NCBI GenBank assembly: GCA_964059195.1
Contig: CAXKWD010000006.1
Span: forward strand, 7,432,530 to 7,496,529
Direction: 5' to 3'
Length of the DNA stretch: 64,000 nt
Source: Ectobius pallidus
Taxonomy: Eukaryota > Arthropoda > Insecta > Blattodea > Ectobiidae
The first letter of the stretch is position 1. Each line of letters opens with the position of its first letter. Made by a program: the position numbers and the translations under genes. Of this stretch, positions 4,995 through 60,540 are shown piece after piece. Under the pieces are notes generated by a model. It saw nothing but the letters and a program-made list of their open reading frames with translations. It was not told the DNA's origin and made no database searches.

Positions 4995-5104
4995 TTCAAT
5001 TATGATGTATTTTCCGTTTTAAATATTGTAACACAGACCTAGACATTTTAGTAAGTAAGTAAGACAAAAACAATCAGTACATTCTCCTTTGTTTTATAGC
5101 AGCT

Positions 5105-5750
5105 ATGTCGCAAGATATGTTACATAACTTGTGGGAAGAGATTCCCGATGAGGCGATCGCCCAGGCCACTTCAGAGGTTGAATACATCATTCCTGACAAC
5201 GAAACTCCCGCGTCTACGGTAGAAGACTGCCAGGAGTCGTCTCCTATGCCCGAGAGGGTAGAGTGTATAGACATCACTCTGCATGACGGTTGGGGCGACG
5301 AGCTAAGGAAGCTGGAGTTTCCCATACGATATAGGCAGATACGGGGTCACAATCAGGAACATGTGGATATATCTCACATGCTTCCTTGTGGCAACACATT
5401 GCGTGATATGGCTGGAGATGTGGAGCTCCACCCTGAAACCTTCCACCATCAGGCGTGCGACGGTGATCGGCATTTCAATCAGTGCACGGTCCACATAGAA
5501 GGTCACTTCGCAATATGGAGTACCCCTTGCGGCAAGGGCTGTCACATATTTGAGAAACTGCAACAAACTGTATCACACCATAGACCCTCACATTTAAAAA
5601 AAGTAATATCATAGTGTAACACTATAGTGTGTTTTTAATCATATCTTTCAGACGCGAAGAAAATTCTTCTTCTTCCACGAGCTGTGTTGTAGCCATATGG
5701 CAGAATGTAGCTATACGGAACAACCCTCAACAGGAAGTGTTGTTAAATGA
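5105..5750 (+). CDS. B gene, NS3-like Cys/His protein, unit 1 (2 exons)
   Basis: Proposed exons are 5105-5569 and 5652-5750, giving about 187 residues. Exon 1 starts MSQDMLHNLWEEIPDE, has an acidic N-terminal third, then the segment ITLHDGWGDELRKLEFPIRY. It ends with the Cys/His domain: LPCG, HPETFHH, CDGDRH, a Trp, and two C-x3-C residues. Spacing is C-x13-H-x4-H-x3-C-x4-H-x3-C-x10-W-x3-C-x3-C, enough ligands for two zinc ions. Exon 2 begins TRRKFF, as in the other B genes. The donor is a weak GTATCA where the 54.5 kb copy has GTAAGT. From memory the domain resembles the C-terminal half of densovirus NS3, a nonstructural protein of insect parvoviruses. That is unverified. Confidence 0.6.
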
Positions 5751-7904: not shown

Positions 7905-8511
7905 GAGCTTCAGATATAGAACGGTTATTTAACATGGAGCATGTCTGTGTTATTTCCGTTTATTTTGAAAAATGTACAAGTTTGAGAAATGGTTGTAGCC
8001 CCTAACAAAATCGAACAGGTTAACGTCTCTTTATCAAAATTATGATTCGTAAACTTCGATTTTAGCATTAGCTTTACGGACACTATGAGGCCTGTATCAT
8101 TTTACCATACTGAATTCGATTTTCGTTATTTGTTTAAATGTATACTTCAAAGTAAACAAGAAAGAAGATAATGGTTCATTAGAACAGTGATCGAACTGAT
8201 CATTTCTACATTTTACACGTTAATAAGGGTATAAGGTGGTTTTAAAAATATAAACTTCACTAAGTAAAACGCCTGTAAACACAATTAAATATTTTCTTAC
8301 ATTTTTGTTCGTTCATAATTGATTTCACAGTAAGTTACTAACACATTTTATAGATTTTCTATTGAAAACCATTGTCGTCTGTCTATGAACACTAAATTAT
8401 AACGTGCAAGTGAGCACTCCATATGTATTAAATAATAATATGTTCACAATGTGGATTCTGATAAGAATGGGCTTATGGAAATAGTTATGTATAAACAGAC
8501 CTCAATTCAAT
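7905..8511. repeat. Noncoding stretch between chimera and PolB fragment, unit 1
   Basis: No gene is seen. The part from about 8085 to 8490 recurs outside the array at 27582-27990, and a shorter piece recurs at 27199-27290. It is therefore a repeat in its own right. Equivalent stretches are 15501-16107 and 23236-23842. Confidence 0.6.
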
Positions 8512-10022
8512 AAGGTCATCATCATTGCACACAACGCAAGAGCTTACGATCTACAGTTTATTCTCGACTTCGCAATTAAGGAAAAGTGGACTCCAGACTT
8601 GGTCATGTCTGGATGCAAAATCTTGTGCATGAAGTTTGAACATTTCGTCTTTCTAGACAGTTTAAACTTCATTCCACTTCCTCTACGAAGTTTCCCCAAG
8701 ACATTCGATTTAACCGATATTGCCAAAGGTTATTACCCGCATTATTTCAATACCCTTGAAAACCTCAATTACGTTGGTCCGCATCCTGACAAATCGGTTT
8801 ACGGACTTGACACCATGTCTGAGAAAGACCGCGAAGTTTTTCTAGACTGGCATAAGTCTGTCGAAAACGAGTTCAATAACAAAAAAGAATTGGAAGAGTA
8901 TTGCCGGGCCGATGTTACCGTGTTGAGAGAAGCCTGCAATCTCTTCAAATCCCTCTTTTGGGAAATAGCCAAGATCGACATTTTGCAGAGGCCATTACTA
9001 TTGCGTCGGCCTGTAATAAAATCTTTCGTAAGACTTTTCTCCAACCTAAAACCATAGGTTTGGTTCCCTCCTGCGGTTATAGGAAAGCAGACAGGCATTA
9101 GCGTAAATCTCTGATGTGGCTATCCACGAAGCTAAGGGGAGGAACATTTTCATCCGTCATGCGGGTAACGGACGAGAGGTTCGCCTACCTGAATTCCCTC
9201 AATTGAAAGTAGACGGTTTCTGTGAAGAAACACGAGATGTTTTCGAATTTCTCGGTTGTTATTATCATGGATGTCTCTGTAGACCTAAAAGAGACGTACC
9301 CTTGATGGATTCTTCCGAATCCCTTGCCGAGAGATACGAAAACACCCTGACCAGATTGGAGAAAATCAGATCATGCGGGTATACTGTTCACGCAATGTGG
9401 GAATGTAAATTTGATCTCGTACTCGAGAATTTCCCCGCGTTGAAAGATGACCCTTTGATAGGTGATGCTCCTCTGGTCATGAGAGACTCGGTCTATGGAG
9501 GGCGAACAGAAGCCATGCGCCTTTTCCACAAGGTGGACGAGAAGCATTCCGAAAAAATCCTGTACGCAGACATTATGTCGTTATACCCGTATGTCTGCAA
9601 ATACTTTAAATTTCCTGTAGGACATCCCACTGTTTACGTGGGGGATCAGTGTGCGGATGTCAATCTCATGATGAACAAAGAAGGTGTTATCAAATGCACA
9701 GTCCTTCCTCCGCAAATGCTCTACCATCCCGTTTTGCCTTTCAGGTGGGGTGGTAAGCTCTTGTTTCCCCTTTGCCGTTCCTGCGCTACTACTTTGGAGC
9801 AAGGGACCTGCACTCACGTTAACGAGGAAGAGCGGGTTCTCACCGGCACCTAGATTGTGGACGAGGTGAGATTAGCTGTTCAGAACCGTTATGAAAGTCC
9901 ACGAATTTCTAGAGTACAAAACTACAATGTACTCTCGTGAAACCCGTGAGGGTGGTTTGTTCGTGGACTATATTAACCTGTTCCTTAAAATCAAAACAGA
10001 GTCCTATAATATTCTCATGTAA
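8512..10022 (+). pseudogene. Protein-primed DNA polymerase B fragment, unit 1
   Basis: This segment of a protein-primed family-B polymerase begins inside the exonuclease domain: HNARAYDLQFIL is the Exo II region and YCRADVTVL is Exo III. It continues through DGFCEE and FLGCYYHGC to polymerase motif A (YADIMSLYPYVCKY, about 9562-9603), and stops before motif B and the catalytic YxDTDS. Lesions are a frameshift near 8980, TAG at 9099-9101, a frameshift near 9118, TAG at 9851-9853 and a frameshift near 9893. No upstream zinc-finger or Exo I part is present. It cannot be active. Confidence 0.85.
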
Positions 10023-10554: not shown

Positions 10555-10905
10555 TCTGACGCATCAACAATAGTTCTAGCTGTCCCTCGCGAAGGACCTA
10601 TGCATGAACGAGAACAAGAGGTTCCTGAACATAGACCTCCACCCTACATGCTACAGGAGATAGTCCAAGATCCCAGGCCACCACCACCACGCTACATACC
10701 CCAAGAGTTACTTGTAGATCATAGGCCTCCCCCATACATCCCTCAGTTCAAATGTGGCTTTTCTAATACTGAGGAAAGATTGGAAGATTGTCACAGATCG
10801 ATTTTTCACTCGATCGACTGCAACGGTTTCAGACATGAGACAATTTGCATGCGAGGAGACGGGAATAATGATTTTATAACATGGGGGAGGTACTTTCAAT
10901 TTTAA
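10555..10905 (+). pseudogene. A gene second exon cut by unit junction, unit 1
   Basis: Exon-derived sequence starts at TCTGACGCATC. It includes a proline-rich linker with repeated RPPPY motifs, then CGFSN, CHRSIFH and CNGFRH. It is cut at WGRY by the tandem junction at 10894 and ends FQF. The final two cysteines, the intron and the last exon are missing. The AG acceptor seen in the related copy at 36441 is absent here. Confidence 0.75.
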
Positions 10906-12722: not shown

Positions 12723-12760
<38 letters not shown>

Positions 12761-14310: not shown

Positions 14311-14727
14311 GCCTGACAGTTTCCTCTTGAAACATTGTTTCTTCGTTCTGCGAATAGTGAAGACTACCTAGTTGACGTCAGCATCTACATCTGATCTTCT
14401 TCTTCTAACATCATTGTCTTTTCTCCTACAACTATCGAGGTAAGTAACACCATGTTTGTTTTAAAATGTAAATAACTTCTTCTCTGTTTTCCTGTTTCTA
14501 TTAGATTCGATGCTTTACTAGTTTTGTTAACTACTTGTTTGTCCTCCGCTTTGCTCATTATGTTTTACATATATTACAGTTTAATGTTAACATAATTTAT
14601 ATACTAAAAACCTTTTTACTGCTACTTGTTAGTCCTCTGCAATGTTTGTTTTTTTTACATAAACATGTGCTACAGTTTAATGTTAACATAATTTATATAG
14701 TAAAAACTTTTTTTTCTTGCTTTTCAG

Positions 14728-15500
14728 ATGGCTTCGATGATCCAAAAAGTCAACAATGCAAGTTATGTAGCAAGGTGCGTTTCAATCTCACAGCTAGTCA
14801 TAGGGCAAACATATAATGTTCTATCAGCCGAATTAAAACACACTAAGTATGGGAACTCTGTGCTGAGGTTCGGTGCAGTTGGACTGCAACTAGTTATCAA
14901 TCTTAGAGAACCAGGTGAAAATTCAGGACCCAACTATTTTGAATCATGTTTAAAAGAAGTTATAGAACATGCTTTAGTCGAAGCTAGATATCACGATATG
15001 ATTGGTGTCTCTATTTTTAACGAAGTTAATAGTGTGGACAAACCTATCGGTATCTCTTATAGGCGAAAAGATCAAGTTAGCATGGATGTAATCACTAGCG
15101 CTGATGCAACAACAATACCTTTTGTACCCGAAAGACCTATACCTAATCGGATACCAGAAGATCAGCAACAACACCAACCACCTATACCACATTTCAGATG
15201 TGGCTATTCAAATATTGCGGAAAGGCTAGAGGATTGCCACTCCTCAATATTTCACACAATTGAGTGCGATGGCCACAGACATGTGACGACATGTAGGCTT
15301 GGTGAATTTAATACAGATTTTGTAGCGTGGGGGACATATTGCCATCGTTTATGCAATATATATTTAAACAGAGGGATATTGGTAAGTTTAAAACATTTTT
15401 TTTTAAATATAAAAAAAATATATATATATATATATATACGACTATGTTTTAACTATAATAATTTCTGTTCATATTTCAGCTCAGAAGACAACTGATGTGA
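14728..15500 (+). CDS. Chimeric PolB-N / A-domain gene, unit 2 (intact)
   Basis: Coding exons are 14728-15381 and 15480-15500, about 224 residues, after a noncoding leader exon ending at 14439. The ATG follows directly on a TTTTCAG acceptor. Residues 50-125 (GLQLVINLREP through KPIGISYRRKDQ) match the N-terminal region of the PolB gene at 58.0-58.3 kb. Residues 126-218 match the A-gene second exon: ADATTI start, proline-rich linker, then CGYSN, CHSSIFH, CDGHRH and WGTYCHRLC. The last exon encodes LRRQLM, as in A genes. It could compete with PolB or with A/NS3 partners, but its role is unknown. PolB's acidic N-terminus is missing. Confidence 0.65.
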
Positions 15501-25885: not shown

Positions 25886-26438
25886 TCTGACGCATCAACA
25901 ATAGTTCTAGCTGTCCCTCGCGAAGGACCTATGCATGAACGAGAACAAGAGGTTCCTGAACATAGACCTCCACCCTACATGCTACAGGAGATAGTCCAAG
26001 ATCCCAGGCCACCACCACCACGCTACATACCCCAAGAGTTACTTGTAGATCATAGGCCTCCCCCATACATCCCTCAATTCAAATGTGGCTTTTCTAATAC
26101 TGAGGAAAGATTGGAAGATTGTCACAGATCGATTTTTCACTCGATCGACTGCAACGGTTTCACACATGAGACAATTTGCATGCGAGGAGACGGGAATAAT
26201 GATTTTATAACATGGGGGAGGTACTGTAACGTCCTATGTGACATGTACTTAAACAAGGGGATAGTGGTAAGTTCTAATGTATATCTATATATATGTATGT
26301 ATTCTTACAACGTTCTGTAACGAACATCGTACGTCACGTAGTGTTGTACTGTGAAATCTACATACCGAAATTACTAAATAATCCTTTCTGTTCATATTTC
26401 AGGTCCGAAGACAAATGGGGAATAATGTTCCGCAGTAG
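25886..26438 (+). CDS. A gene, exons 2-3, end of unit 3 (uncut copy)
   Basis: Exon 2 runs to 26266 and exon 3 is 26403-26438 (VRRQMGNNVPQ then stop). The first ATG in frame is at 25931, giving about 123 residues; upstream codons (SDASTIV) are homologous to the exon 2 start in other A genes. The full ligand set is present: C-x12-H-x4-H-x3-C-x4-H-x3-C-x11-W-x3-C-x3-C. No first exon and no AG acceptor are seen upstream, so expression from this copy would need another start. Confidence 0.6.
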
Positions 26439-31110: not shown

Positions 31111-31594
31111 GGAGTGCTCTTTTTACTATATAGGCCATTTGTCATACGACCAAAAATGCGTCTGAAGACCTCATGTTCACTGGCACAGGGGGTGGGCCAG
31201 AGTGAAAGTTCACTGGGGACGACCGATTAGTCTTTGCGATACTGGGCGAGGATAGCCCTAATATCCAAGGGCTCGGTATCGCTCGGCGACCTGTGGGAAG
31301 AACATCATCCCACAACTAGTGACTGCCTGTTTTGGTGCAGAGTGAGGTGGTAGTGCTCCTGCCATTGTGTCTGCTGATGCAGTTGCGGCACCAAGTCCCT
31401 CGCAGGTCACGGAGGTGTACTTGCAGATGTCAGGCTGGTAAGTAATTTTTTGAATTCATGTTAACTTTATGCATGTCTTGGGGATACTGTGAAGATATGT
31501 TATTATTATTATATGTGTGTGTCTGAAAACATAATAATTACAAATATACTTAATATTAATCTTGTTGCAATATTATCTTCCTTCCGCAGATCGT

Positions 31595-32130
31595 ATGGAT
31601 CAATATTGGGATGGGGTCCCCGACGAGGTAATAGCACAGGCGTTAGAAGGGGAAGAAGAAGATAAAGAACCTCCTTCTACATAGTCCAATATAGAAGAAG
31701 AAAAGCTGATCACTATACACGACGGATGGGGGACGCAGTTAAGGACAATGTTATTCCCCATACGTTATGAAACCATCTATGGTCCAAATCAAGTGCACAC
31801 AGAATCGTCCCCGATCCTGCCCTGTGGCAACACGCTGCGTGGGATGGTGGGGGACCAACATGCCCACAGTGATATATATATATCATAAAAAGGGGCACCT
31901 CTGAATGTGGAGCGAGAAGTGCAAAAGGAAGTGTAAACTATTCTTTCCACTGCAGCTAGCTGTAAGTATTATCATCACAGACCTCCGTATAATTTAATAT
32001 CGTAACTTGTTGGTTATAGTGTGTTGTTTATGTGTGTTTCAGACTTGTAGGACATTCTTCCATAACCTGTGGTGTGGACAAGGGGAAAGATGTGCCAATC
32101 CGGACCACCATGTCTTGGGGATGCTGTGAA
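31595..32130 (+). pseudogene. B gene, decayed copy
   Basis: Exon 1 begins MDQYWDGVPDEVIAQA straight after a CGCAG acceptor and later has ITIHDGWGTQLR and LPCGNTLRG. A TAG at 31682-31684 interrupts the acidic region. A (TA)n insertion near 31868 replaces the central HHxxC/CDGxxH part. The end of the domain (MWSEKCKRKCKLFF) survives in another frame, followed by GTAAGT. Exon 2 starts near 32043 with TCRTFFHNL, matching the RRxFF start of other B genes. This copy lies outside the tandem array and is older than those in it. Confidence 0.65.
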
Positions 32131-34274: not shown

Positions 34275-35073
34275 GTTGAAATCGAACGTTGTGATCGAAC
34301 ATCAAAACAACCAGATATCAACATCGCCAAAGTCTCGATCAGCAAAACGACCATTAGAAATAGAACCTACGTCATCAAAACGTGCAAAGATAGGGATTGG
34401 AAAGGGGAAATATATGCAACATGGAGACGATTTACTTGGTGGTGCTCTTTCTGTGTTTGTAACACCGTTGGAAAACGGTTTCAATGATACTAATATTGAG
34501 AAAGATACGGTGATTGTACATTTTTACTTCTCTGACACAAAAGAATTACTGTCACGTAATATAACAGGGAGCAGACAAATCGTGAACATTTTCACTTACT
34601 GTATGAGATCTTTGCGACCTGCCGCAGACGTACATTTTGTGAATGATAACATTATTGTTGTATTTACAAACAAATCACTAAATGAAAGCGTCGAATCCTA
34701 TAACCTTGACGAAACTACATGGACTCTAAGATTCGTTGGTTTCAAAACACACACATACCCCTTTCAATTTATCACTTTCAATGATAAATTTGTAAAAAAA
34801 ATCTCAGTTCGGTTATTACAATTCTACAAGAAACAAATGCACAACAAACACCTCTCGTTTATATTTAATGAAGAAAAACAAACATACACATTAAATTTAT
34901 CACGCATTACAAACATCAAAATGGGCAAGTGAGAAGGTGAAACAGAGAAATTGGAAACCTCTTCAGATCCAGTGTCATTTATTATTTTCAAAAATAAATA
35001 ACACACAAACATCATATTATGTAAAATGTGTACTTATTAATGTATTGCAGTTGTGTTACGTTTGTGTTGAAAT
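34275..35073 (+). mobile_element. 0.8 kb insertion with GTTGAAAT target duplication
   Basis: GTTGAAAT occurs at 34275-34282 and again at 35066-35073. Removing one copy and the DNA between them restores the Myb-gene frame exactly. An 8-base duplication fits hAT or P-type integration, but I see no terminal inverted repeats and no poly-A tail. The insert is almost filled by one ORF and has an AATAAA at 34993. Confidence 0.65.
34276..34932 (+). CDS. Unknown protein carried by the 0.8 kb insertion
   Basis: The frame is open from the left end of the insert for 218 codons. The first ATG is at about 34413 (MQHGDDLLGGALS), which would give about 173 residues. The N-terminal part is basic (KRPLEIEPTSSKRAKIGIG), like a bipartite nuclear localisation signal. 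The rest is a mix of beta-like and aromatic residues (VIVHFYFSD, TWTLRFVGF, YPFQFITFND) with no motif I recognise. It is not Myb sequence. It could be a gene of a small DNA element or an inserted virus fragment. No function is assigned. Confidence 0.45.
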   Translation: MKSNVVIEHQNNQISTSPKSRSAKRPLEIEPTSSKRAKIGIGKGKYMQHGDDLLGGALSVFVTPLENGFNDTNIEKDTVIVHFYFSDTKELLSRNITGSRQIVNIFTYCMRSLRPAADVHFVNDNIIVVFTNKSLNESVESYNLDETTWTLRFVGFKTHTYPFQFITFNDKFVKKISVRLLQFYKKQMHNKHLSFIFNEEKQTYTLNLSRITNIKMGK

Positions 35074-42300: not shown

Positions 42301-42762
42301 GCTAATGCAGTGTTTGTGCTTCAGAAGAGGGCTGTGCGCGGTATGGTTGGAGTAGCTCCTCACACCCACTGCAAACCCTATTTTATTAAAATGGCGATCC
42401 TGCCCTTGATATGTATATATATTTATCAGTGTCTAATTTATACCAAAGGTAACAGTAATCTCTTTTTAACAAATAGAGACACCCATAATTATGAAAATAG
42501 AAATAGTCACAAGTTGAAACCATATTTTTGCTCCTATAGTAGGTCACAAGCGGGATGTAAATATACTGCAATTAAATTATTTAATCACTTACCCGCTGAG
42601 GTGCAAGAGATGGAGGAAGTCAAATTCAAAAGAACTATAAAGAGATTTTTATTGCAACATTGTTTTTATAGTATAGATGAATATCTGCAGACTCCTTGGA
42701 ACACATGACTGTAAAGTCACCTGACTTTTCCAACACAATTGTACAATTGTCTATGGAATAAA

Positions 42763-47457: not shown

Positions 47458-47550
47458 ATCCGCCATCTTGGATGACGTCATTACCCCCACCACTTTTGAC
47501 AGTTATTTGACCTTGACCTAGTTAGCAATTGACCTTGACCTACCTGACTA
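47458..47550 (+). promoter_or_regulatory. Cluster of CCGCCATCTTGG, TGACGTCA and TGACCTTGACCT motifs
   Basis: Within 90 bases lie CCGCCATCTTGG (YY1-like), TGACGTCA (CRE), and two copies of TGACCTTGACCT, which contain the TCAAGGTCA site of FTZ-F1/ERR-type nuclear receptors on the other strand. They lie directly upstream of an A-type exon. This could be a promoter region or part of a common repeat. Confidence 0.35.
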
Positions 47551-47586
47551 AAAAGGGACTGATACCACTAACGTTTGATTTACAGC

Positions 47587-47813
47587 TGGAACCTCGACAG
47601 ACCTTACCACAGTTTAAATGCGGTCACTCGAATGTAGAAGAACGTATCGAGGATTGTCACTCCTCCATCCATCACATAATAGAATGTGATGGTCGAATAC
47701 ACAAAACGACCTGCATGTATGGAACCGTAGATACCCACTTCATATCGTGGGGTACCTACTGTCATAAGGGATGTGATCTCTACCTAAGCAGAGCAATAGA
47801 GGCAATTCATTAA
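47587..47813 (+). pseudogene. A gene, second exon only (diverged copy)
   Basis: After a TTTACAG acceptor-like site the frame reads LEPRQTLPQFKCGHSN, then CHSSIHH, CDGRIH and WGTYCHKGC, the full A-type ligand set. Where other copies have the GTAAGT donor directly after the IE codons, this copy has 13 extra bases with an in-frame TAA before GTAAGT. No first exon and no LRRQ last exon are identified. It is the most diverged complete A domain in the window. Confidence 0.65.
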
Positions 47814-47816
47814 GGT

Positions 47817-48202
47817 AAGTAAAATTCTAATGTAATCGTTAGGAAAAAAAGAAATAATATATATATATATATATATGATTAATGAAAAATAGAATAAAAT
47901 TCTCTACTTCTAAATTGTAAACATAAATAAAATAAAAATGAAATAAAGTTTTACATAACCGAGTTTTTCTTTGAATTTGAAGAAATAACAATACATATTC
48001 CTATAATCTTGTTATTTTTTAAGTATTAATGTACGAGAACCTTTAACATAATGCCATATTAACAATGATCTTATGATATCATTACACATAAGATACGAAT
48101 CTCATTGTTTACTCTGAGGAAGACATCATAATCAGATTGCAGAATATTGTCTTGAAATTTCAAAAATGAGATTAACATATTATTAACTGAGGACTGCCCG
48201 TA

Positions 48203-48240
<38 letters not shown>
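47817..48240. other. No gene recognised; (TA)n tracts
   Basis: AT-rich sequence with (TA)n at about 47855-47875 and 48206-48238. Confidence 0.6.
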
Positions 48241-48243
<3 letters not shown>

Positions 48244-48685
48244 GGTGTCCATAAAAGAACTCCGGGGTTTTAAAAATTCATATACTATTAACTATAGAAG
48301 ATAGCAAAAAGTAGTTAATTTCTCCGAAACGAGTAGCTCATCAAGTTTTACTCATACCAATTGGGAATGTTTTCATCAACAGTTGGTAGCGCTGCGGAGC
48401 ATTGACCTTGAAACAACGTAATAATCAGTGCCGTCTGGAATTCCTCGCTATGGCGACACCGCAACAAAAGGCTCAATGCGTTATTTGGCTTATAGGAACT
48501 AATTCTGTTGTTATGGTACAAAGAAACTTTCGACATAATTATGGTGTTGACCCGCCTACGGACAAAACAATTCGCCAATGGTTAAGTGCTTTCAAGGAAA
48601 CAGGAAGTGTTTTAAAGCAAAAGTCGCCGGGTAAGCCGCGTGTGTCACAAGAGAATGTGGACAGAATCAGAACTTCATGCCTTCG
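48241..48685 (+). mobile_element. mariner/IS630-like transposon, 5' part with DUF4817-type HTH
   Basis: It begins CAGGGTGTCCATAAAAGAAC, a terminus typical of insect mariner/IS630-like elements. From ATG 48450 it encodes MATPQQKAQCVIWLIGTNSV, then KETGSVLKQKSPGKPRVSQE and DRIRTSCLR, the helix-turn-helix N-terminal domain seen ahead of the DDE domain in this group. Right after that the sequence changes to unrelated DNA, so the DDE domain and right end are missing. Confidence 0.75.
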
Positions 48686-48870
48686 AAGAAATCGTTGAAG
48701 ACGTAGACGATGAAGATAGCTGTTTACAGACTTAACAAAACGAATAAATAACTAGTCTTTTATACACATCTCCCCACCACCATAACCCTTTCATAATGTT
48801 ATTTTCCATTTTAGAAGGATGTAACCTTGACGTAAATACTACTTAGGAGAAAACAACTCATTAGGACACA
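48686..48870 (+). other. 3' remnant related to the ORF X 3' flank
   Basis: A short open tail (EIVEDVDDEDSCLQT then stop at about 48735) is followed by CGAATAAATAA, then TCTCCCCACCACCATAACCC. This resembles the region just after ORF X at 4930-5050. It suggests that an X-like gene stood here before the transposon landed. Confidence 0.4.
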
Positions 48871-48921
48871 ACATATGAGCTAGCTACTAACCATTTAAAA
48901 ATAACATTACGAAATAAACTA

Positions 48922-49770
48922 CAGTAAAACCTCTCTATAACGACCATCGCTGGTTCCACGGAAAAATGGTCTTTAAGAGGGGTGGTCTCTTAATAGGGGG
49001 AATGCATTTTTATGTCTTGAAACTGAAAATACAATAGAATAAATACGGTACAATACAAACGGTGCATTATGCAAGTTAACACACAGTTGATTATTACTTA
49101 CTTTTACAGTATAACGGGGTAATGTTTTCCAGGAAAAGAAAGACACGTCTATTTTCGCTACATTACATTTTGCTATTAGGGCAACGAAAGGAACTCGACC
49201 GGCACGCTTCTTAGAATCGAGAATTTCAGAAACCCCCACATGTCCACTGAATAAACGTTTTCATAAGAAATAGAATTACCCCTCCGAGTCACTGCCATCA
49301 TGTAGATTATAAAGGCATGAATTCTTAAGGGTATTGAAACAAGCAGGTAAGAGGTACGAGATTGGAATGTGTCCTGTTGAAGCCGCGGTACTTGTACGCT
49401 GTCTACTGTAAGGTATTTCCCAGAAGGCGAAGAGGAAAACAGCCCAAAAGCATTGTTCAACCATATTCTCATTTCTGTTCATTCACTCTTGTAAAAGCAC
49501 TGTATTGAAAATTGAAGAGACATCTTGCAGTATTTCTGTTCAAATGCTGATTAATGCCTACCATTTGAGTAAATATTTTTTATGATTTTGGTCGTTATAG
49601 AGGAGTTTAACGTAAATGAAACTCTGGTCGTTGGTCGGGGAGAGGGGTGGTCGTTTAATAGGGGTAAAAATAACATTGGCCTTATGGGTTTTACTATCGG
49701 TTCCTAGAAAAATTGGTCTTTAAAGGAGGTGGTCGCTAAAGAGGGGTGGTCTTTAAGACAGGTTTTACTG
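48922..49770. mobile_element. 849 bp TIR transposon with TA target duplication
   Basis: The left end is CAGTAAAACCTCTCTATAAC and the right end is its imperfect inverse, GGTTTTACTG, each bordered by TA. Subterminal GGTCTTTAAGAGGGGTGGTC-like repeats occur at both ends. No transposase frame is seen, so it is a non-autonomous element. The ends and TA duplication fit the pogo/Tigger group. Confidence 0.85.
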
Positions 49771-49773
49771 TAC

Positions 49774-49918
49774 TATAAATAGCTTAGCCCGTGGTTCCCC
49801 CCTTTCAGTTTTACACCTTTGTTGTTACCGAGAGGTGAGTGGTAATGCGTTAAAAAACGCATACAGTCAAGTGCTAATTATTTCCGTTACATTCATGTGT
49901 TGTATTTTTCCATTACAG
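49774..49918 (+). promoter_or_regulatory. Promoter, leader exon and intron of PolB copy at 53.1 kb
   Basis: TATAAATA lies at 49774-49781 and TCAGTT at 49805-49810, with the putative start A 33 bases from the TATA. A leader exon follows to 49834, then GTGAGT and an intron ending TTACAG at 49918. The leader and intron match 57509-57655, upstream of the other PolB gene, but that copy has no TATA. The TATA lies just 3 bases outside the TIR transposon. Confidence 0.6.
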
Positions 49919-49959
49919 ATTCAGTCATATTTGAGTGTTGAAAGCCCTTTCTGTATCAA

Positions 49960-49982
49960 TAATAGTAATAATAATAATAATA

Positions 49983-50013
<31 letters not shown>

Positions 50014-53000
50014 AAATGAAAGATACCTCGGATGAATCGGAGCATCTGAAAATACCCAAGACTAAGTTCAGACTCAAGACAGGACGAATAAACTACATAG
50101 CAATGCACAATATAAATTCCATTAGACAACCAGGGAAACTCAAAATTTTGACAGACGAAATGGATTGTAAAGAAATTCTAATAACAGGACTTCAAGAAAT
50201 GAGAAACACTGATCAGGAACCAATAGAATCGCAAGGATACAGAATTTACAAGGGAATACCAGGGAAAAGAGTAATGAAACAATGTCCACAATTCGGAACA
50301 GGTTTTATAGTCAATCTCAAAATAATTGAATCTGTAATAGAATTCAAAGCACAATCTCCCAGGCTCTCAACACTAACTGTAAAAGCTGCAAATAGAATAT
50401 ACACAATAATAAATGCTCATGCCCCAACTAATGATAAAAACAATAAGAAGGAACTAAGAGAAGAGGTAGATGGATTTTGGGAGCTGTTAGATCAGACAAC
50501 AACAAACATAAATAAAAATTACACCAACATTTTAATTGGAGACTTTAATGCCCAGTTAGGAAGGGAAAGGAGATGTAGGGATGTAATAGGGAAATGGCCA
50601 GCACAAAAAAGAACAAACTAGTGGAATTCTGCAGGAATCATAACATGATCTCAAAGTCTTCATACTTCAAGAGAAGACCAAATAAACTCAAAACTTGGAA
50701 AAAAGGCGAATGGCAACTGGATCATGTTTGTATGGATAAAAATTACCACAGGGAAATCTACAATGTAAAAGTCCTCAGAGGAACAGATACTGGATCAGAT
50801 CACTACATGATAAAAATAAAAATTAAATTCACCCCATGGACAAAAAAGAAATCCCAACCCAAAAATAAGAGAACCTACGACCCTCATAAACTGATAAATA
50901 ATAAGGAATATGAAGAACGAAGTAGGAATATTAAAATAACAGATGATCTAGAGGAAATAATTCCCCAATTGAAACAAATAGCTGAACAAGTAGCCCCAAT
51001 AAATCCAAGGAAAAAACACCCATGGTGGAACGAGGAATGTGATAGAACGGTGGAGGATAGACATCAAGCCTGGTTAAGATATCAGAACCAAAGAACAGAA
51101 GAATCAAACTCTGAACTCACAAAACAAAGGAAAATAACCCAAACAATAATAAGAATTGTCAAACGCCAATATCAAAAGGATATACTTCTAATGATAGAAA
51201 CAAATAGTGAGAAAACAAACTCAAGAGATTACTACAAAATATTTAGTAGACAACTACAAAGATATGAACCTACAACCTTAATGTTAAAAGATAAAAATAA
51301 TGAGATGGCGCATAGTAATAGTAAAAATACAGAAATTTTAGCAGAAACATTTAACAAATTACTAAACTGTGAATACCCCTCAGAACTTCTTGAAATAAAC
51401 ACTGAAACCCATGTTAAAACACCAGCAGAAAACATAAACCCACCCACAATCCATGAAGTCTACAAAGCCTTGAAAGAACTTAAAAACTAAAAAGCAGGTG
51501 GAGAAGACCAAACATTTGCAGAACTTTGGAAATATGCAGCAGAACCAGTAAAGATATCATTACATCAATGCATTGTGAAAATATGGAACACAGAAAAACT
51601 ACCAGAACAGACTACAGCTATAATACATCCATTACACAAGAAAGGAGAAAAATCAAATCCAGACAACTATAGAGGAATTTCCCTTTTGGATGTCACATAT
51701 AAAGTTTTATCAAGGATTCTGTATGGTCGCTGCAAAGATCAACTTGAATTGGAAATTGGAGAATACCAAGGAGGATTTAGGCCTTGGAGAAGCTGCCCAG
51801 AACAGATAATCACCTTAAAACTAGTAATGGAGTATTACAAAAGAAGACAAAAACAACAAGTTATAACCTTTGTAGACTTCAAAAAAGCCCACGATTGTAT
51901 TCACAGGTCTTCAATGTTGAAGATACTAAGGAATTTTGGAATTCATCCCAAATTAATAAAATTGATACAATTGACTCTAACGAACACCAAATCTAAAGTA
52001 AAATTTAGAGGAGAAATATCGGAACCGTTTATGATAAAAACAGGGCTAAGACAAGGAGATGGTCTATCACCATTACTTTTCAACTGCGCTCTAGAGTATG
52101 TGATGAGGGAATGGTACAAAGAAAATCCTAAAAACATACGAATTGGAACCAAAAAGGATGGAATAAACTTAAATTGCTTGGGATTCGCAGACGACTTAGC
52201 GTTACTAGCTAATAACATTCATGAAGCCAGAAATCAAATAGCTAGCCTACAAAATATATCACAAAAAATAGGACTTCAGATATCATTTGAAAAAACCGAG
52301 ATAATGGTAACAGACCCACTAGTAACCAATCACATAACAATAAATAACAAGAAAATAAAATTAGTAGAGCAATTTAAATACCTAGGAGAAATTATAACAC
52401 ATAACTTGGACGAGAAACCTGCATGGCAAGCGAGGACTAATAAAATGATAAAAGCTCAAAAATTAACATGGTCTACATACAATAAAAAATGTCTATCGAT
52501 CCAAACAAAATTAAAACATTACAAGACGGTGGTTCAACCAGAGGTGACATATGGAAGCGAAACTCTTTTTAAAATCACCCAGAAAAATAGAATAGACAAA
52601 ATCCTGAAAGTAGAGAGAAGAATAGCTAGAACATGCATAAATAAAAAATACCAAAAAGATGGACAGTGGCGGATAATACCAAATGAAATGGTGTACAGAG
52701 AACTAGAACCTATCACAGATACTATACGGAAGAAAAGGATCTCTTTTTTTGGTCACATTATGAGGACACCAGAAACTCGACTGACAAGAAAAATTATAGA
52801 GAAACTCTGGAATATGAAGCAACAAGTAGGATGGATTACAGAAATTAGAGAGGATATGACAGAATTAGAAATAACTTTGGATGACTTGAAAAACAAAACA
52901 GGAAATTCAAGGAAACTTAAAAATATTAAAATAAGATTTAAGCCAAAAATAGACAGACGCCAGACAATAAAGACGGTATTTACAGATGAAGAGCGACAGA

Positions 53001-53110
53001 GAAGATCGGAAAGCATGAAAAACTACTGGGCAAATCGGAAAGGAAGACCGAGAAATGATTGACTGAAGTGGTCCAATGAGGCCGTAAAAGCAGAAGAAGA
53101 AGAATAATAA
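49960..53110 (+). mobile_element. RTE-type non-LTR retrotransposon inserted in PolB 5' leader
   Basis: (AAT)n sequence on the left and AATAATAATAATG on the right show insertion into the microsatellite in front of the PolB start codon. The protein has an N-terminal endonuclease (LIGDFNAQLG, TGSDHYMIKI), then RT motifs HPLHKKGEKSNPDNYRGIS, LRQGDGLSPLLFN and catalytic FADD (LGFADDLALLA), and a C-terminal RRISFFGH-type segment. Breaks are a frameshift near 50590-50620 and a stop TAA at about 51488. Otherwise it spans nearly the full length (50016-53062), so it is a young but dead copy. Confidence 0.88.
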
Positions 53111-53112
53111 TA

Positions 53113-53760
53113 ATGTCAGCCCCTATTTCCTCTGATTCTGAGAGCGAAACGGATAGTGTTACACTACCTGAATCAACACCGGAGATTTATACAGTCTCTA
53201 GTTCTGATTCAGATGATGCAATAGAGACCGTGACGCTGTCAGACTCGGAGGACGACGTAGTTGTTGAATCTGATGATGAGCTAGCTGCAAGCGAGGAAGA
53301 GCTGGATAGGATTTCTGTCAATGAGGGGGAGGGTACTTCTTCGAATTCGGAGAATCGACCCTCCCCATTGTTTACAGTTGTCGAGAGTACTCGTAAAGAG
53401 CACAAATGGTTCAACTCTGCCGGGTTACAACTAGTGGTCCGACTCAAAGAACCATCTGAAAATGCAGAACCAAACTTTTTGAAACGGCCCTTATGGCTGT
53501 TATCGACCATGCGTTAGTCGATACGAGAGACCATGATATGGTAGGGATCTCGATTTTCAATAAGGAAAATGAGGTCGATAAGCCTATTGGTATCTCCTTT
53601 AGGCGTAAAGATCAATTCAGTGTAGATGTGATTTCAGGCGTCGTAAATAAAGTATGCCACCGACTGCTTGCGTGTGGTTCTGGACATTGTCCATATGCCA
53701 AACGGAAACGGGGGACACAGCGACGGCACACCTATGAAGGGGCGTACGGTTGGTGTACAG
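53113..53760 (+). pseudogene. PolB N-terminal region, second copy (broken)
   Basis: It begins MSAPISSDSESETDSVTLPE, an acidic Ser-rich stretch like the start of the gene at 57750. The LQLVVRLKEPSENA segment and, after a frameshift near 53480, KPIGISFRRKDQ follow. A 20-base deletion relative to the other copy near 53658 shifts the frame again, and the sequence ends at an (AAT)n tract. Nothing of the zinc-finger, exonuclease or polymerase parts is left. Confidence 0.8.
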
Positions 53761-53762
53761 AC

Positions 53763-53802
<40 letters not shown>

Positions 53803-54382
53803 CAACAATATAGAAATGCATGTATGTTCTAAAGTTTCTTCTCAAACCTTTTGTACTTCCATTTTACTTACGATCCAAAAAAAAAACCTACAATCGCTGT
53901 GTTGTGAGATTATTGACTTCTAAGGCGAGATCGCACCTATTAAACAGTTAACAATACAGCGGTTAGAATTATGTGCTTGCAGTTTGAAGAATGTAATGTT
54001 ACATTCTGGTGTGTTTCTATACTTTATAATATTTATCGCAAATACACATCCCACATAGATTATTATTCAGAAATAATAATAATAATAATAATAATAATGC
54101 ATGTATTTTCTAATTCCTCTTCTCAAACCTATGGTACTTCCATTTTATACACATCTCCGCGGGCTGTTATTGTACTGAATACGAGAAGGTGACCCAAAAT
54201 ATCTATTATTTACATCAAGAACACTTTCACTGGATGCTTCAATTATACAGCAAGACATTATTAAATGATACTTTGTTATTGTGTTCTCATATATATATAT
54301 TCAACATTAAAGTGTAAAATCGTGAAACATACACCACAAATAACTAATCTAGGTCATAACCTCGGGTAAAATCCGTGCGCTG

Positions 54383-54454
<72 letters not shown>

Positions 54455-54484
54455 ATAGTAATTACGCGTTAAAGTGTAAAGTTC
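53763..54484. repeat. Microsatellite-rich gap
   Basis: It holds (AAT)n at 53766-53810 and 54077-54099 and a long (TA)n at 54385-54450. No gene is recognised between them. Confidence 0.85.
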
Positions 54485-55370
54485 ATGGCATATATATATA
54501 ATAACGTGATAGTTATAAGATATTACAATACCATTTCGTTCCCATCCTTAGATAATACTACGGATCTATGGGAGGAGATAGAGGATGAGGTGCTCCTACA
54601 AGTTCCCACAGGGGAGGAATTCGTAATAGAGGTCGACCCTGAATATGTACTACCGCGAGAAGAAGAAGAGGCCTCGCAAGAACTTCTGAGAGAAATAGGG
54701 CTCCCTTCAGGGGAGGGATACAACGTACAGATTGAAAAAAAACTCTCTTCATCATTACCACAAGCGTACGAGTGGGAGCCTACCGAATACAGAATAGTAT
54801 TGTCTCCTTGTGAGGAACCTTTACTACCAGCGCCCGAGCCTGGTGAAGTTAGATCAATTACGCTTCACAACGCGAGGGGTGATCGCAAGGAAGACCTAGA
54901 ATTCGCTGTCGTCTATAGGATCATTACAGGCTCCAATCAACAACACATAGAACGGACACCTGTACTGCCCTGTGGACATAACCTACGGGACAAGGCCGAT
55001 GACGCGCACACACATGAAGACGCGCACCATCACCAGCTGTGTGATGGGGTTCAGCATCTCCATCGTTGCCCCATAGCGTTTAAGGGTCGCTTCGATCTCT
55101 GGAGCGAGGAGTGCACGAGAGACTGTAGATTGTTCTCTTCACTCCTAAAAACCGTAAGTATTAATCCCTTACCATTTAATTATAACAGGACATGATGTTT
55201 ATACTCCCTTACCATTTAATTATGATAGCAGGACATGATGTTTATACTATGAGTGTGTGTGTGTGTTTCAGGCTCGACGAGCTTTCTTTTGCGAAGCCAT
55301 ATCCTCGCGGGGAAGGAATGCACCACCAGCAGCAAACCGAACCCCACCACCCTCCATTACCATCGATTAA
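54485..55370 (+). CDS. B gene, NS3-like Cys/His protein, intact copy
   Basis: Exons are 54485 (or 54552, if the TTAG at 54548-54551 is an acceptor) to 55153, and 55272-55370. From the ATG at 54485 this gives about 255 residues. DLWEEIEDEVLLQ aligns with the start of the other B genes, and a long acidic region follows. The segment ITLHNARGDRKEDLEFAVVY precedes the Cys/His domain (LPCG, HEDAHHH, CDGVQH, W-x3-C-x3-C). The donor is GTAAGT and exon 2 starts ARRAFF. AATAAA follows at 55445. No stop or shift is seen. If the TTAG is used, the true start lies in an unseen upstream exon. Confidence 0.68.
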
Positions 55371-55690
55371 TTATACATGTCTAGGTTTAGTGTTACAAGT
55401 TAAAAGCACCGTAGAGGAGTACACCTTGGAATTCTGTATTTAACAATAAAACAATAGTTTCCTTTTTTTTGTTATCTATACACAAGATGTACGAGTTTTC
55501 AGTTAGCGAACAAGGCAATCTTATACTCCATAACATTGCTGTGGTTAGATACAACTAGACCCTACCCATCATTATATTCCTTCATCTCACAATCAAATTA
55601 GAAATAGTAATACAGGTTGAACGTTCGAAGATGAGGAAGAAGAATGGAAGGAAGGAAGAGGTAACTTACTACTACTACTACTACTACTAC

Positions 55691-55728
<38 letters not shown>

Positions 55729-55935
55729 CCTGTAATTACCTGTACTTTTTTTCATAGACTATAATAATGAAAGAAATGTAACAATGTTATCTTTTCTCTG
55801 TAGCTCTCTCTCTCTCTTTATGGTTCTCATGTTTGTCTTAAACGCTGAGGATTCTAATGTTAAGAACACTAGCAGGATTTTAACAGGTTATAATAAAAAT
55901 ATTACAATTTTATTTTTTATTTTTATTTTTAGAAA
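55371..55935. other. B-gene 3' end and microsatellites
   Basis: Contains the AATAAA at 55445 and (ACT)n/(AAT)n at 55668-55726. No gene is seen. Confidence 0.7.
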
Positions 55936-56877
55936 ATGAACCCTGTTATCGATCTGACACAAGAAGAAGCTGAAGCTAGATGTCAGTCAGTAAGGTATGT
56001 GACACGTGCACACACACACACACACTTATATATATATATCCTACATATTATTATTATTATTATTATTACTATTATTATTACCATCCTTAATATTTCAGCT
56101 CGGAAGCATCGACTGTAAGAGTCCCTGCGGTGAACCAGGAACTTCTTGATTTTCTTGAAAATATTCCTGATATACGCCTACGACCTCTTCAAACCCCGCC
56201 CCCGCAGTTCCCTTGCGGTCTGTCAAACTGTGAAGGGAGGGTAGTAGACAAGCATTCCTCTATTTTCCATACCATTACATGTAATGGTCTTGTTCACAGT
56301 ACAAGGTGTATATACCCTACGGCCCAATACCAATTTCTGTCGTGGGGTAGAGAATGTCACCGAAGCTGTGACATTTTTCTAAGCAACGTTATCGAGGTAA
56401 GCATTTTATGTTTTTTTTGTTTCTTTATTCTTTAAAGCTGTATATGTTTTATTTTAAATGTTCATTCGTTTATCTTTATAAAACATATTTTCACTTCGTA
56501 ATTTAAAATTTTAAAGAAACGCAGTAGTTAAGGAAAAAAATAAATACATTTTAAAAGGACTAAATTATAGGGTTACATTATTCAAAGTCGTATAAAGTTC
56601 ATGACTTCCAAAAATAAAAGCGATCAGTAATTAAGTTAGCCTAATAACATTAATAATAATAATAGTTTTTTCAACATCACCATAAGAATAAATACTTGAA
56701 ACTTTTTTTTAATTAAAAAATAGTTTTTCGACTTACTATTGTTGTAAATTCGTAATATATTATTATTATTTTTACCATCTTTTTTGTCGAAAATTAGTTT
56801 AATATATCCTATTATATGTTTTTCTGTATGCTTTTCAGCTTAGAAGACAGGAGGCACAATGGGATCTACGCCAGTGA
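55936..56877 (+). CDS. A gene, intact three-exon copy
   Basis: Exons are 55936-55994, 56099-56396 and 56839-56877, giving 131 residues with all phases matching. Exon 1 is MNPVIDLTQEEAEARCQSV, acidic and helix-prone. Exon 2 starts SEASTVRVPAV, has a short proline-containing linker, then CGLSN, KHSSIFH, CNGLVH and WGRECHRSC. Spacing is C-x12-H-x4-H-x3-C-x4-H-x3-C-x11-W-x3-C-x3-C. Exon 3 encodes LRRQEAQWDLRQ. Donors are GTATGT and GTAAGC, acceptors TTTCAG, and AATAAA lies at 56945. It follows the B gene by 0.56 kb. The domain is homologous to that of the B genes. Function is unknown; zinc binding is likely. Confidence 0.72.
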
Positions 56878-57508
56878 AGGATTTTTTTCTGTATAGGCTA
56901 CTCCTTTATACTCCTTTTGTTTAACTATTATTGTTTCTTGTGAAAATAAACTTGTAATTCTCGTGTAATGTATATGTATGTGTATATTTTATTTTCATCT
57001 GAAGATATCACATCCTACATAGAGTTATGCATATAGCTCCTATGTCCGTATTTTTTATTAAGGAGTAATAAACCAAATAAAAAATGAATGTACGCTTATA
57101 CGGAAATCTGTAAGGAATATAATCCTTTTTGAGCTATAACAATTCAGACATCTACCCTTAGTAAAAAAGAAATCGCTGATGCAGTAATATATTGTGTTCT
57201 TCTCTTAAAGTATTTTTGTTGTAAAAATGAAGGATACACATCGCCCAAAGGAAATTTGATTAATACACTCACGTGAGTTGTCTCATGATCTAGGCTAATA
57301 CTATTGTAGTATAAGGGGAAAATTATTTATGTAATTTGTGAATAATTAATTGTCAGTTTGTTCAAGGAACTTTTTTAAAAAAATGTTTTCTCTTAATGTA
57401 AATTGTTCTCGTAGTTATTTTGTTAATCTACTAACAAACTACACTACACTAGGGTTAATGTCTGATATTGTCTGTTCGTTAAGAACGGTAAATTCTAGTG
57501 TATTTCGT
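56878..57508. other. A-gene 3' end and spacer
   Basis: Contains AATAAA at 56945. No other gene is seen; the short frame at 57350-57559 overlaps the next leader and has no recognisable content. Confidence 0.6.
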
Positions 57509-57655
57509 TCAGTTTTACAGCTTTGTTGTTACAGAGAGGTGAGTGGCAATGTGTGTTAAAAACGAATACAGTCAAGTGCTAATTATTTCCGTTACATTCA
57601 TGTGTTACGTTCTTTATACTGTTACATGCATTTAATGTTTTCTCTAATTGTTACA
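57509..57655 (+). promoter_or_regulatory. Initiator, leader exon and intron of PolB at 57.7 kb
   Basis: TCAGTT at 57509-57514 would place the start at 57511. The leader ends AGAG at 57538 and the intron runs from GTGAGT to TTACAG (57655). It matches 49805-49918 in sequence and layout. The second exon continues through an (AAT)n run (57718-57750) to the ATG at 57750. Confidence 0.55.
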
Positions 57656-57717
57656 GATTCAGTCTTTTGTATTTTTATTAGAGAGTTGAATATCATTATA
57701 TATATATATATTACTAC

Positions 57718-57749
<32 letters not shown>

Positions 57750-57752
<3 letters not shown>

Positions 57753-60538
57753 TCCGCCCCTGTTTATAATATTTCATCGGATTCTGAAAACGAGTTCGAT
57801 ACTATTACGTTAGATGATTCCGAACCAGAGGTTTATACAATTTCTTGTTCGGAATCAGATAACGCAATGGAAACTGTGACGTTATCAGATTCCGACGACG
57901 CAAATGAATCTGATGAAGAACTAGTTTCTAGCGAGGAAGAGTTGGATATGATGTCTGACAATGAGGGGGAGGGTATTTCTTCAATTTCGGAGAATCGACC
58001 CTCCCAACTGTTTACAGTTATCGAGAGTACTCGTAAAGAGTACAAAAGGTTCAACTCTGCCGGCTTGCAGCTAGTGGTCCGACTCAAAGAACCATCTGAA
58101 GATGCAGGACCCAACCCCTTTGAGACGGCTCTTAAAGCCGTTATAGACCATGCCCTAGTCGATACGAGAGACCATGACATGGTAGGGATCTCGATTTTCA
58201 ATGAGGAAAACGAGGTCGATTGGTATCTCCTTTAGGCGTAAAGATCAGATCAGTGTAGATGTGATTTCAGGCGTCGTAAGCAAAGTATGCCAGTTGAACG
58301 CTCGGTTCAATGCCACCGACCGTTTGCGTTTGGTTCTGGACATTGTCCGTATGCCTAACGGGAACGGGGGACGTGGCAACGGTATACCTATGAAGGGGCG
58401 TACGACTGGTGTACTTGCCCATTTGAAGAGAAGTGTAGTCTTCGTACAGGCAGTCGTGAACTGTTTAGCATTTGCAATAATCATCGCTATTGCTCGAGTT
58501 AGCGATCGTAAAAAGTATAAATCGTACATAGATCACAACATGACAAGCAAAAAACTCAAGGCTGAAGTGGACGATCTGATCAGAAACTCTGGTGTCGATC
58601 TCTCGCGAGGTGGAGGTATCCCTGAGCTGGAGAAGATTCAGCCTCACATTAAGGATAGATACAGACTTGTAGTTTACAGCGGCTTTAATCTCGATTCTGT
58701 ACTGTACGACGGCGGTAATGTGGGGAAAGAAATCCTTTATTTACTCTATGACCGAGACACCCTCCATTACCATACCATAACAAACTTGACCACTGCAATG
58801 GCTAAACGATTCGTTTGTCCAGGTTGTCTTAAAGGCTTCACTAGAGGTGCGGTACACTCCTGTCATTACGTCTGCTTCTGTTGCCGAACGGTGCCTCCTT
58901 GCGATCCTAGCAAGAAGGCGGTGAAGTGTGCTGATTGTCGTAGAGAATTTCGCGGACCGGGATGTTTCGATAATCATAAGCGTACCAAGGTTCAAGGGCG
59001 CACTGTATGCATGGCTATGCAGAACTGTCTAAACTGTGGCAAGTTTACGACATTTCAGCGGAAACATGAATGTTTCAAAATTTTTTGTGCCGTATGTAAA
59101 AGTAATCAAGCAGAGACAGGACATGAATGTTACATGGCACCGCTGAAAGAAACTAAGCGTTCACAGAGCGTTCTGTATGTGATATACGACGTAGAAACAA
59201 CACAGAATACCCGTATCAAAGACAATACCTTTCTTCACGTCCCCAATCTGATTTGTGCACAGCAGTCTTGTTCTCTTTGCGAGACATCGCAAGACGAAGA
59301 GTGCGCCAGATGCGGGCAAAGCAGTCATTCTTTCTGGGAAGATCCCGTCCGTGGATTCATGGACTATCTGAGAATGGAAAGACCGTTCGATAGGATCATT
59401 GTTATTGCTCACAATGCTCGAGCGTTCGATCTACAATTCATTCTCGACTACGCTATTAGGCAACAGTGGACTCCCGACTTGATTATGTCTGGATGCAAGA
59501 TCCTTTGCATGAAGATGCACCATCTAACTTTTCTGGATAGCTTGAACTTCATTCCGCTGCCTCTGAATAGTTTCCCCAAGACCTTCGACCTTAAAGACGT
59601 TGTTAAGGGCTACTTTCCACATTTGTGGAATACGGCACAGAACCTCAACAGTATTCTCCCACATCACCCGAACCAAGATCTTTACGGGGCGGACACCATG
59701 TCTGAGAAAGATAGAGAAGCTTTCAAGACCTGGTTCGAGACCGTTAAAGATCTGCCGTTCAATACCCGTGTAGAACTTGAAAGGTATTGCCAGGCTGATG
59801 TTACTGTACTGAGAGAAGCCTGCACTCTCTTTAAAAATATGTTCAAACAAATTGCCAATATAGATATTTTCCTAGAGTCTATTACTATTGCATCGGCCTG
59901 TAACAGAATATTTAGACAGCTATTCCTTAAATCTGAGACCATTGGCATTGCTCCCTCCTGTGGCTATAGAAAGGCAGACAAGCATTCTAAAAAATCGTTG
60001 ATGTGGCTTATCCACGAAGCCAAGGAGAGGAACGTATTTATACATCATGCAGGTAACGGACGCGAGGTACGGCTTCCCGAACTTCCCCAATGGAAGGTGG
60101 ACGGTTTCTGTGAAGAAACAGGAGAGGTTTACGAATTTCTCGGCTGTTAATATCATGGCTGTCTCTGTCAACCAAACCGAGATGTACCTATGATGGATTC
60201 TTCAGAATCCCATGCCGAGAGGTACGAAAACACCATGGGCCGACTGGACAAGATCCGATCAAAGGGTTATACCGTCCACGTGATGTGGGAATGCAAGTTC
60301 GATGTTATTCTCGAACAGTTCCCCGCACTGAGAGACGACCCCTTGGTCTGTGGTGTCCCGTTGGTCCTTAGGGACTCTGTCTACGGAGGACCTACAGAAG
60401 CCATGCGGCTTTATCGTAAGGCGGATGAGATGAAAGAAGAGAAAATCCTATACAGCGATATAATGTCCCTATATCCATCCGTCTGTAAGTACAACAAGTT
60501 TCCTATCGGTCACCCCACTGTTCACGTTTCTCTCCAGT
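57750..60538 (+). pseudogene. Protein-primed DNA polymerase B, longest copy (5' two-thirds)
   Basis: From MSAPVYNISSDSENEFDT the order is an acidic Ser-rich N-terminus (about residues 1-80) and an LQLVVRLKEPSEDAG domain. A Cys/His-rich zinc-finger region follows (CPGCLKGF, CFCCRTVPPC, CADC, CLNCGKF, CAVCK; about 58815-59130). Then come Exo I (YDVETT), Exo II (HNARAFDLQFIL), Exo III (YCQADVTVL), DGFCEE, and motif A (YSDIMSLYPSVCKYNKFPIG, ending near 60510). An 8-base deletion near 58219 shifts the frame, a TAA lies at 60148-60150, and the gene is cut just after motif A, losing motifs B and C. The family uses a protein primer, as in Polintons, adintoviruses and bidnaviruses. Confidence 0.88.
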
Positions 60539-60540
60539 AA

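Follow-up and report, generated by a model that had tools for sequence, protein, structure and literature searches.

A probable Polinton graveyard and an apparently undescribed Cys/His gene family shared with PolB-less and palindromic elements

Polintons (Mavericks) are held to lie near the root of several groups of eukaryotic DNA viruses, and their hallmark is a pair of terminal inverted repeats (TIRs) with AG...CT ends, flanked by a 6-bp target duplication. To our knowledge, little is known about how Polintons yield satellites or about what lineage-specific Polinton genes do. Here we describe a stretch of 64,000 nucleotides, henceforth the window (C6:7432530-7496529 of a 2.12-Gb assembly with 410 contigs), which contains broken genes for a B-family DNA polymerase (PolB) and two kinds of short Cys/His genes, A and B. 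C-numbers denote contigs and L-numbers the genome stretches compared; the host genome was treated as eukaryotic, judging by its size, introns and transposons. A preliminary description had assigned PolB, A and B to an integrated bidnavirus-related lineage, with A and B as relatives of the NS3 protein. We consider it likely that the region is instead a graveyard of Polinton copies, that A and B form two branches of a single accessory family of Polintons (intron-containing genes for small proteins), and that B has been kept by PolB-less derivatives and possibly by the host. As an accessory gene family of Polintons, A/B would be new and is apparently undescribed.

Several described systems resemble what is found here. 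The likeness to Polintons lies in a PF03175 PolB, an integrase with rve and chromo domains, a Pox_A32 ATPase and a Peptidase_C5 protease, all in intact relatives, and in TIRs, AG...CT ends and 6-bp target duplications in B-bearing examples; the extra A/B family, a PolB-less derivative that carries it and near-perfect palindromes made of inverted dimers are differences. Bidnaviridae, such as BmBDV, also have inverted terminal repeats and a PolB of Polinton ancestry, but here no NS1 was found near PolB, relatives carry integrase and protease, and the termini are others. As with virophages and satellite viruses, a smaller element would rely on a larger one for its replication enzymes; here, however, the putative helper and the putative satellite would both be Polintons of one genome. 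Foldback-like transposons such as Galileo share very long inverted repeats, whereas the arms described below are gene-bearing, join at a perfect centre and have Polinton ends, a comparison limited to the part of PMC3573991 that was available. The literature searched, which mostly leaves out subscription papers, yielded no published inverted-dimer or non-autonomous Mavericks and no published account of A or B with PolB. Further background is found in PMC4028283 and PMC6431247, both available in part.

The PolB pieces of the window are the following:
57750..60540, plus strand: Polinton-type PolB remnant (PF03175, E 1.6e-18; pieces 58-75% identical in amino acids to the intact PolB of L009), made of an acidic leader (57750-58235), an N-terminal half with the exonuclease part (58201-60150) and the start of the polymerase part (60151-60540)
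53118..53765, plus strand: second PolB 5' fragment, truncated, with acidic leader and N-terminal domain (80.6% DNA identity to 57770-58414; tblastn match to PolB)
8470..10004, plus strand: PolB fragments in unit 1 of the array, repeated at 16066-17600 and 23801-25335 (78-98% amino acid identity to L009 PolB)

The first of these is damaged by a frame change near 58.2 kb and a stop at about 60.15 kb, and its similarity to PolB ends at about 60.54 kb, a 3' truncation. The array is the 2.2-26 kb region, a tandem of units of about 7.6 kb whose long alignments are 97-99.9% identical. Open reading frames (ORFs) at 16195-16653 and 16712-17449 likewise match PF03175 in a Pfam search, and copies of the Cys/His pattern lie in the same tandem units; recurrence of PolB with A/B in the array was thus borne out. 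In a protein database, the window PolB ORF had 33 matches, of which 5 were uncharacterised Haliotis proteins, 7 carried automatic JGI names and the rest had no name; a PolB fragment gave no match in viral contigs.

What the PolB belongs to is seen in its relatives. A PF03175 search of the assembly, in which 75 candidates were scored, gave 151 matches, many of them in single unbroken frames of 1376-1515 amino acids (aa). Distances below refer to 75 listed PolB sites, which leave out the window's own. For B, 150 of 1206 candidates were scored and 150 matches listed; for A, 150 of 602 were scored and 78 listed. Genome-wide counts of A, B and PolB hold among these listed matches only. Four PolB relatives were sampled, two of them read gene by gene (L009+L011, L014+L015) and two mapped (L012+L013, L016+L017). 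After PolB, all four have one gene order: small ORF, ATPase, an ORF named px, integrase of rve type, two more small ORFs and, in the capsid position, an ORF of 450 aa, of which L016 holds only the start. An adenovirus-type protease is present in the three whose stretch extends that far. Pfam matches on L011 include rve PF00665 (E 4.6e-11) with Chromo, Pox_A32 (E 2.2e-8) and Peptidase_C5 (E 2e-4, barely past the cut-off), and the integrase was also detected by tblastn in L013, L015, L016 and L043/L045. The capsid-position ORFs fit in size and place, and take their name from position and recall only. No inverted repeat was found between the compared stretches of the four copies, so their ends were not seen.

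In the window, comparison with the genes of these relatives revealed no capsid, integrase, ATPase or protease gene; among the Polinton genes tested, the only ones detected were A and B, pieces of PolB and the beginning of a small ORF called S. The absence of capsid, integrase and ATPase genes noted in the preliminary description stands for the window, but the element family has integrase and ATPase genes and putative capsid genes, and the absence is a local loss. Conversely, the four full Polintons contain no A or B match at E 1e-4 and no match to the Cys/His pattern. L014 and L017 were weakly matched (E 5e-5 to 7e-5) by window sequence 3' of an A domain, but this match lies outside the Cys/His domain and was discounted.

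The A and B genes of the window, and one exon that combines A with other genes, are listed here:
54473..55195, plus strand: B gene, Cys/His exon (pattern match; 5' splice site at 55154; at least 150 genome matches)
55936..56396, plus strand: A gene with exon 1 from 55936 on, the Cys/His domain in exon 2 (56099-56396) and perhaps a third exon near 56840 (from ORFs and splice signals)
47526..47813, plus strand: A-type exon (pattern match; stop directly before GTAAG)
5063..5614, plus strand: B gene of array unit 1 (also 20340-20891, and 12760-13308, which has a changed ligand and a stop)
10555..10905, plus strand: A-type exon (also 18153-18491, 25886-26320, and 36443-37039, where one pattern cysteine is lost)
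31583..31979, plus strand: decayed B copy (tblastn E 1.6e-22, main piece)
14722..15402, plus strand: chimeric exon of array unit 2, one open frame that joins the start of S to an N-terminal piece of PolB and an A domain, flanked by good 3' and 5' splice signals

Counterparts of the chimeric exon in units 1 and 3 (7018-7810 and 22351-23140) have a 109-bp duplication.

The eight-ligand pattern proposed for both A and B, C-x(12,13)-H-x4-H-x3-C-x4-H-x3-C-x(10,11)-W-x3-C-x3-C, was tested in all six frames of the window and has 9 exact matches (array duplicates counted), all on the plus strand, which is also that of PolB. A looser form found the same 9 matches in the window versus none in 60 dinucleotide shuffles. 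Its layout comprises 5 Cys, 3 His and 1 Trp, and 12 columns are invariant in an alignment of seven A and B domains. Mutual tblastn matches between A and B were obtained with five queries (A_47, A_56, A_7 and both B; E 1e-6 to 0.009), while two of the five A queries, A_25 and A_36, found no B. The claim of conserved introns held in part: GTAAG follows the A domain at 56397, 15382, 7787, 26267, 36824 and 47815 (the last just past a stop) and the B domain at 55154, but is missing from the array B near 5.57 kb.

The A/B proteins are probably zinc-binding. A protein database yielded no accepted homologue among 88 candidates at E 0.001 or 1581 at E 0.1, no match in viral contigs passed, and a PDB sequence search gave an unrelated enzyme as best match for B (E 0.083) and none for A. 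A Pfam MBD match of one array B (E 0.039) was below the cut-off, and a match of B to phrog_36819, whose function is not known, was weak (E 0.016). We take VIDLT in A exon 1, EEYIIPD in B and repeats in the PolB leader to be putative SUMO-interacting-like motifs; targeting to nuclear bodies is only an idea.

The evidence that ties B to mobile elements comes from elsewhere in the genome. The listed B matches form 100 groups, with 23 outward (-+) pairs, 13 inward (+-) pairs and one group with two outward pairs. Three architectures were examined, and the one member checked of each has AG...CT ends (AGTAGT) and a 6-bp target duplication. The type i element (C7:3208643-3221583, 12.9 kb) has TIRs of about 1.35 kb at 97% identity and the target duplication TATGTA. 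Its genes are, in order, S (minus strand), a truncated PolB leader, B, a small ORF, the ATPase, px, the integrase, the capsid-position ORFs and the protease; the PolB body is absent, and B occupies its slot. In L026 and L027 B also adjoins a small ORF and the ATPase, the full extent of both lying beyond the stretch compared. The type ii element (C3:151177559-151190980, 13.4 kb) has TIRs of about 0.3 kb, the target duplication AATGAG and three B genes, together with an integrase H2C2 domain (E 2e-6) without a detected catalytic core, a small ORF and a BED finger below the cut-off. The same gene set is found in L034/L035 and L036/L037, and a related one, with 3.3-kb inverted repeats, in L038/L039. 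Beside a type ii element, the minus-strand ORF at 1735-2658 of L034, which has no Pfam match, presumably resembles a second PolB lineage.

The type iii element (C4:11844230-11857738, 13.5 kb; target duplication TATCAT) is a palindrome with arms 99.3% identical, a perfect central 1952 bp, and B and S in both arms. Another palindrome lies on C2; its arms are 99.9% identical, and it differs by 3% from the C4 copy. A third, at C4:94.66 Mb (3.8 kb compared), has 1407 bp identical in its two arms; it differs from the C4:11.84 copy by gaps only, with no mismatch, and is 97.7-97.9% identical to the C2 copy. The sequence of palindromes was inspected for these three pairs only. Among outward B pairs, 18 of 25 have open frames of equal length in both arms; random pairing would give 4.4, and none of 100000 shuffles reached 18.

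The anatomy of the B elements thus shows that they integrated with 6-bp duplications and Polinton-like ends. As B sits within elements bounded by TIRs and target duplications, in a family with at least 150 matches, an ordinary host gene family is rejected as the sole explanation of A/B, and the proposal that A/B are tied to PolB-type mobile elements, and not to an unrelated host family, was upheld in this form.

How these pieces might work together can be outlined. Full Polintons carry PolB, without A/B in the four sampled, and B resides on derivatives of three types; none of the 78 listed A and none of the 150 listed B comes closer than 30 kb to any of the 75 listed PolB sites. These would be satellites that borrow the protein-primed PolB in trans from full Polintons, and types ii and iii would borrow the integrase as well. 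The palindromes would arise as inverted dimers by hairpin copying, which would renew both arms together. Both A and B would work in trans inside the nucleus, either as early regulators or as antagonists of host or helper; this is the weakest step. The C6 cluster of A genes described below would be either a recently fed graveyard or a gene set that the host has retained. Full, PolB-less and palindromic Polintons in one genome, the last two sharing a conserved gene family, would make satellite dependence, hairpin replication and host capture directly testable.

Selection was estimated by the Nei-Gojobori method as the ratio of nonsynonymous to synonymous change (dN/dS), for which 20 B pairs and 28 A pairs were tried. 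Values of 0.11-0.50 were obtained in 13 of the 20 B pairs. Three A pairs could be scored, at 0.18 (window 56 kb versus L049), 0.15 (window 47 kb versus L048) and 0.42 (26- versus 36-kb copies); of the others, 24 were saturated and one lacked synonymous changes. Fisher tests gave 1.3e-5 for one A pair (window 56 kb/L049) and one B pair. Purifying selection is thus seen in most, not all, A and B comparisons.

A number of observations weigh against the Polinton reading or limit its reach. No intact element seen carries PolB plus A/B, so the case for a joint origin comes from the remnants in the window, from the PolB leader that a PolB-less element retains and from shared genes. The small ORF S was present in two of the four full Polintons sampled. 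We presume S to be SSB-like, for which database searches gave no support. Compared with an arm of the C4 palindrome and with the C7 element's left TIR, the window has no match of at least 100 bases. Intact relatives do have capsid-position ORFs, but those of L011 gave no Pfam match and the 450-aa ORF no PDB sequence match. Five of the 20 B pairs have dN/dS of 0.65-1.87 and two are undefined; the higher values come from window B versus L040 (1.09) and L041 (0.79), its nearest copies, and from L040/L041, two array copies and L033/L035. Since the third palindrome equals the C4:11.84 copy as closely as its own arms match each other, hairpin copying and recent spread are not separated, and the arm-length test is weakened because pairs of one subfamily share length anyway. 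Zinc binding, nuclear action and PolB borrowing are predicted roles, and the AlphaFold models of A and B were unusable (pLDDT 50 and 44). The confinement of genome-wide counts to listed matches must also be borne in mind.

The A genes have a distribution of their own. Within C6:7.219-7.556 Mb (337 kb) lie 25 of the 78 listed A matches and 5 B matches, all on the plus strand. Nine A copies, mostly 5.8 kb apart, occupy C6:7320224-7371375, and the one 5.8-kb unit read (L049) contains an A gene and a transposon, which we take to be a hAT. Smaller one-strand groups of A occur on C9 (five, all minus), C8 (three, all plus, with one B on the opposite strand) and C1 (three, all plus). Listed A genes are within 15 kb of a listed B in 18 of 78 cases, two divergent A-B pairs 7.1-7.6 kb apart are found on C12 and C8, and A also occurs in inverted pairs, three of which have an A with one stop.

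This one-strand cluster is compatible with later host use of A/B, and one may ask whether it is a domesticated host family, in which A/B were captured from Polintons, amplified in tandem and kept, for example, to restrain Polintons or viruses. Its uniform strand, the spacing of nine of its A copies (mostly 5.8 kb) and the one-strand groups on the other contigs argue for such a view. No A frame of the cluster has a stop (0 of 25, versus 12 of 53 elsewhere; Fisher 0.006, or 0.08 with arrays collapsed to 11 units), and dN/dS is 0.18 between two cluster A genes, while the PolB copies of the window are broken. However, this constraint may date from life in mobile elements, the single 5.8-kb unit read contains the hAT-like transposon, a stop interrupts one array B, a splice site is missing from another, and the C8 group includes an opposite-strand B. 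We regard domestication as possible, though rather unlikely. The strand uniformity of A/B across 337 kb could also mark a one-strand source of PIWI-interacting RNAs (piRNAs) that traps Polinton and parvovirus fragments, with frames open only because the insertions are young; other transposons are nested in the cluster, as is a Parvo_NS1 fragment on the same strand (C6:7398173, 34 kb upstream of the window). The dN/dS of 0.18 inside the cluster argues against this, tandem duplication largely explains the strand bias, and other transposon-like ORFs of the window are on both strands, so that we hold a piRNA source to be unlikely. A quite improbable extension of the Polinton reading is a two-tier parasitism: helper Polintons would be exploited by PolB-less B satellites, including hairpin-replicating palindromes, and a host-captured cluster of about 25-30 A/B genes under purifying selection would possibly interfere with the helper.

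The affiliation to bidnaviruses found no support in these comparisons, and an endogenous bidnavirus-like element with A/B as NS3 now seems very improbable. It is true that bidnavirus PolB is itself of Polinton origin, and the termini alone do not tell the two apart, as BmBDV ends in GTGTGTGT and one wasp Polinton has the same GTGTGTGT terminus (PMC4061559, from the portion available). Parvovirus-type sequences are also present in the genome: the assembly contains 64 Parvo_NS1 (PF01057) matches, including 22 with similar scores in frames of 306 aa; some form inverted pairs, one lies in the C6 cluster, and 14 control genomes had none. These are not tied, however, to PolB of the window type. The window itself has no Parvo_NS1 match, and none comes closer than 50 kb to any of the 75 listed PolB sites; 7 of 78 listed A (all on C6) and 5 of 150 listed B are within 50 kb of one. 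The four sampled PolB relatives are Polintons with integrase and ATPase, and the checked B-bearing elements have AGTAGT ends and target duplications. For A/B, the family, protein, PDB and viral-contig searches gave no NS3-like match, NS3 being compared by published description only; four conserved cysteines are given for it in a figure legend of PMC4061559, unlike the 5 Cys, 3 His and 1 Trp of A/B.

Parvo_NS1 matches also form inward inverted pairs 7-10 kb apart, at C4:116476008/116483344, C6:62434035/62442778, C7:155111494/155121651 and C1:158044153/158054260. A parvovirus-derived mobile element is a possible interpretation of such pairs.

Unrelated sequences are interspersed with the remnants. 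One such insertion separates the 47.5-kb A exon from the 53.1-kb PolB fragment:
49935..53062, plus strand: retroelement outside the element, read directly from its ORFs and presumably of the long interspersed nuclear element (LINE) type, a label given without a family search

We likewise take ORFs at 40390-42708 and 43636-44550 (minus strand), amid A/B remnants, to be retroelement-like, so that this kind of ORF occurs on both strands. The array units contain a fragment of a Mutator-type transposase (PF20700) at 3748-4230, 11427-12059 (E 7e-14) and 19025-19507, the first and third being near-identical ORFs. Finally, the ORF at 34273-34929 encodes 219 aa with a basic N-terminus and has no Pfam match.

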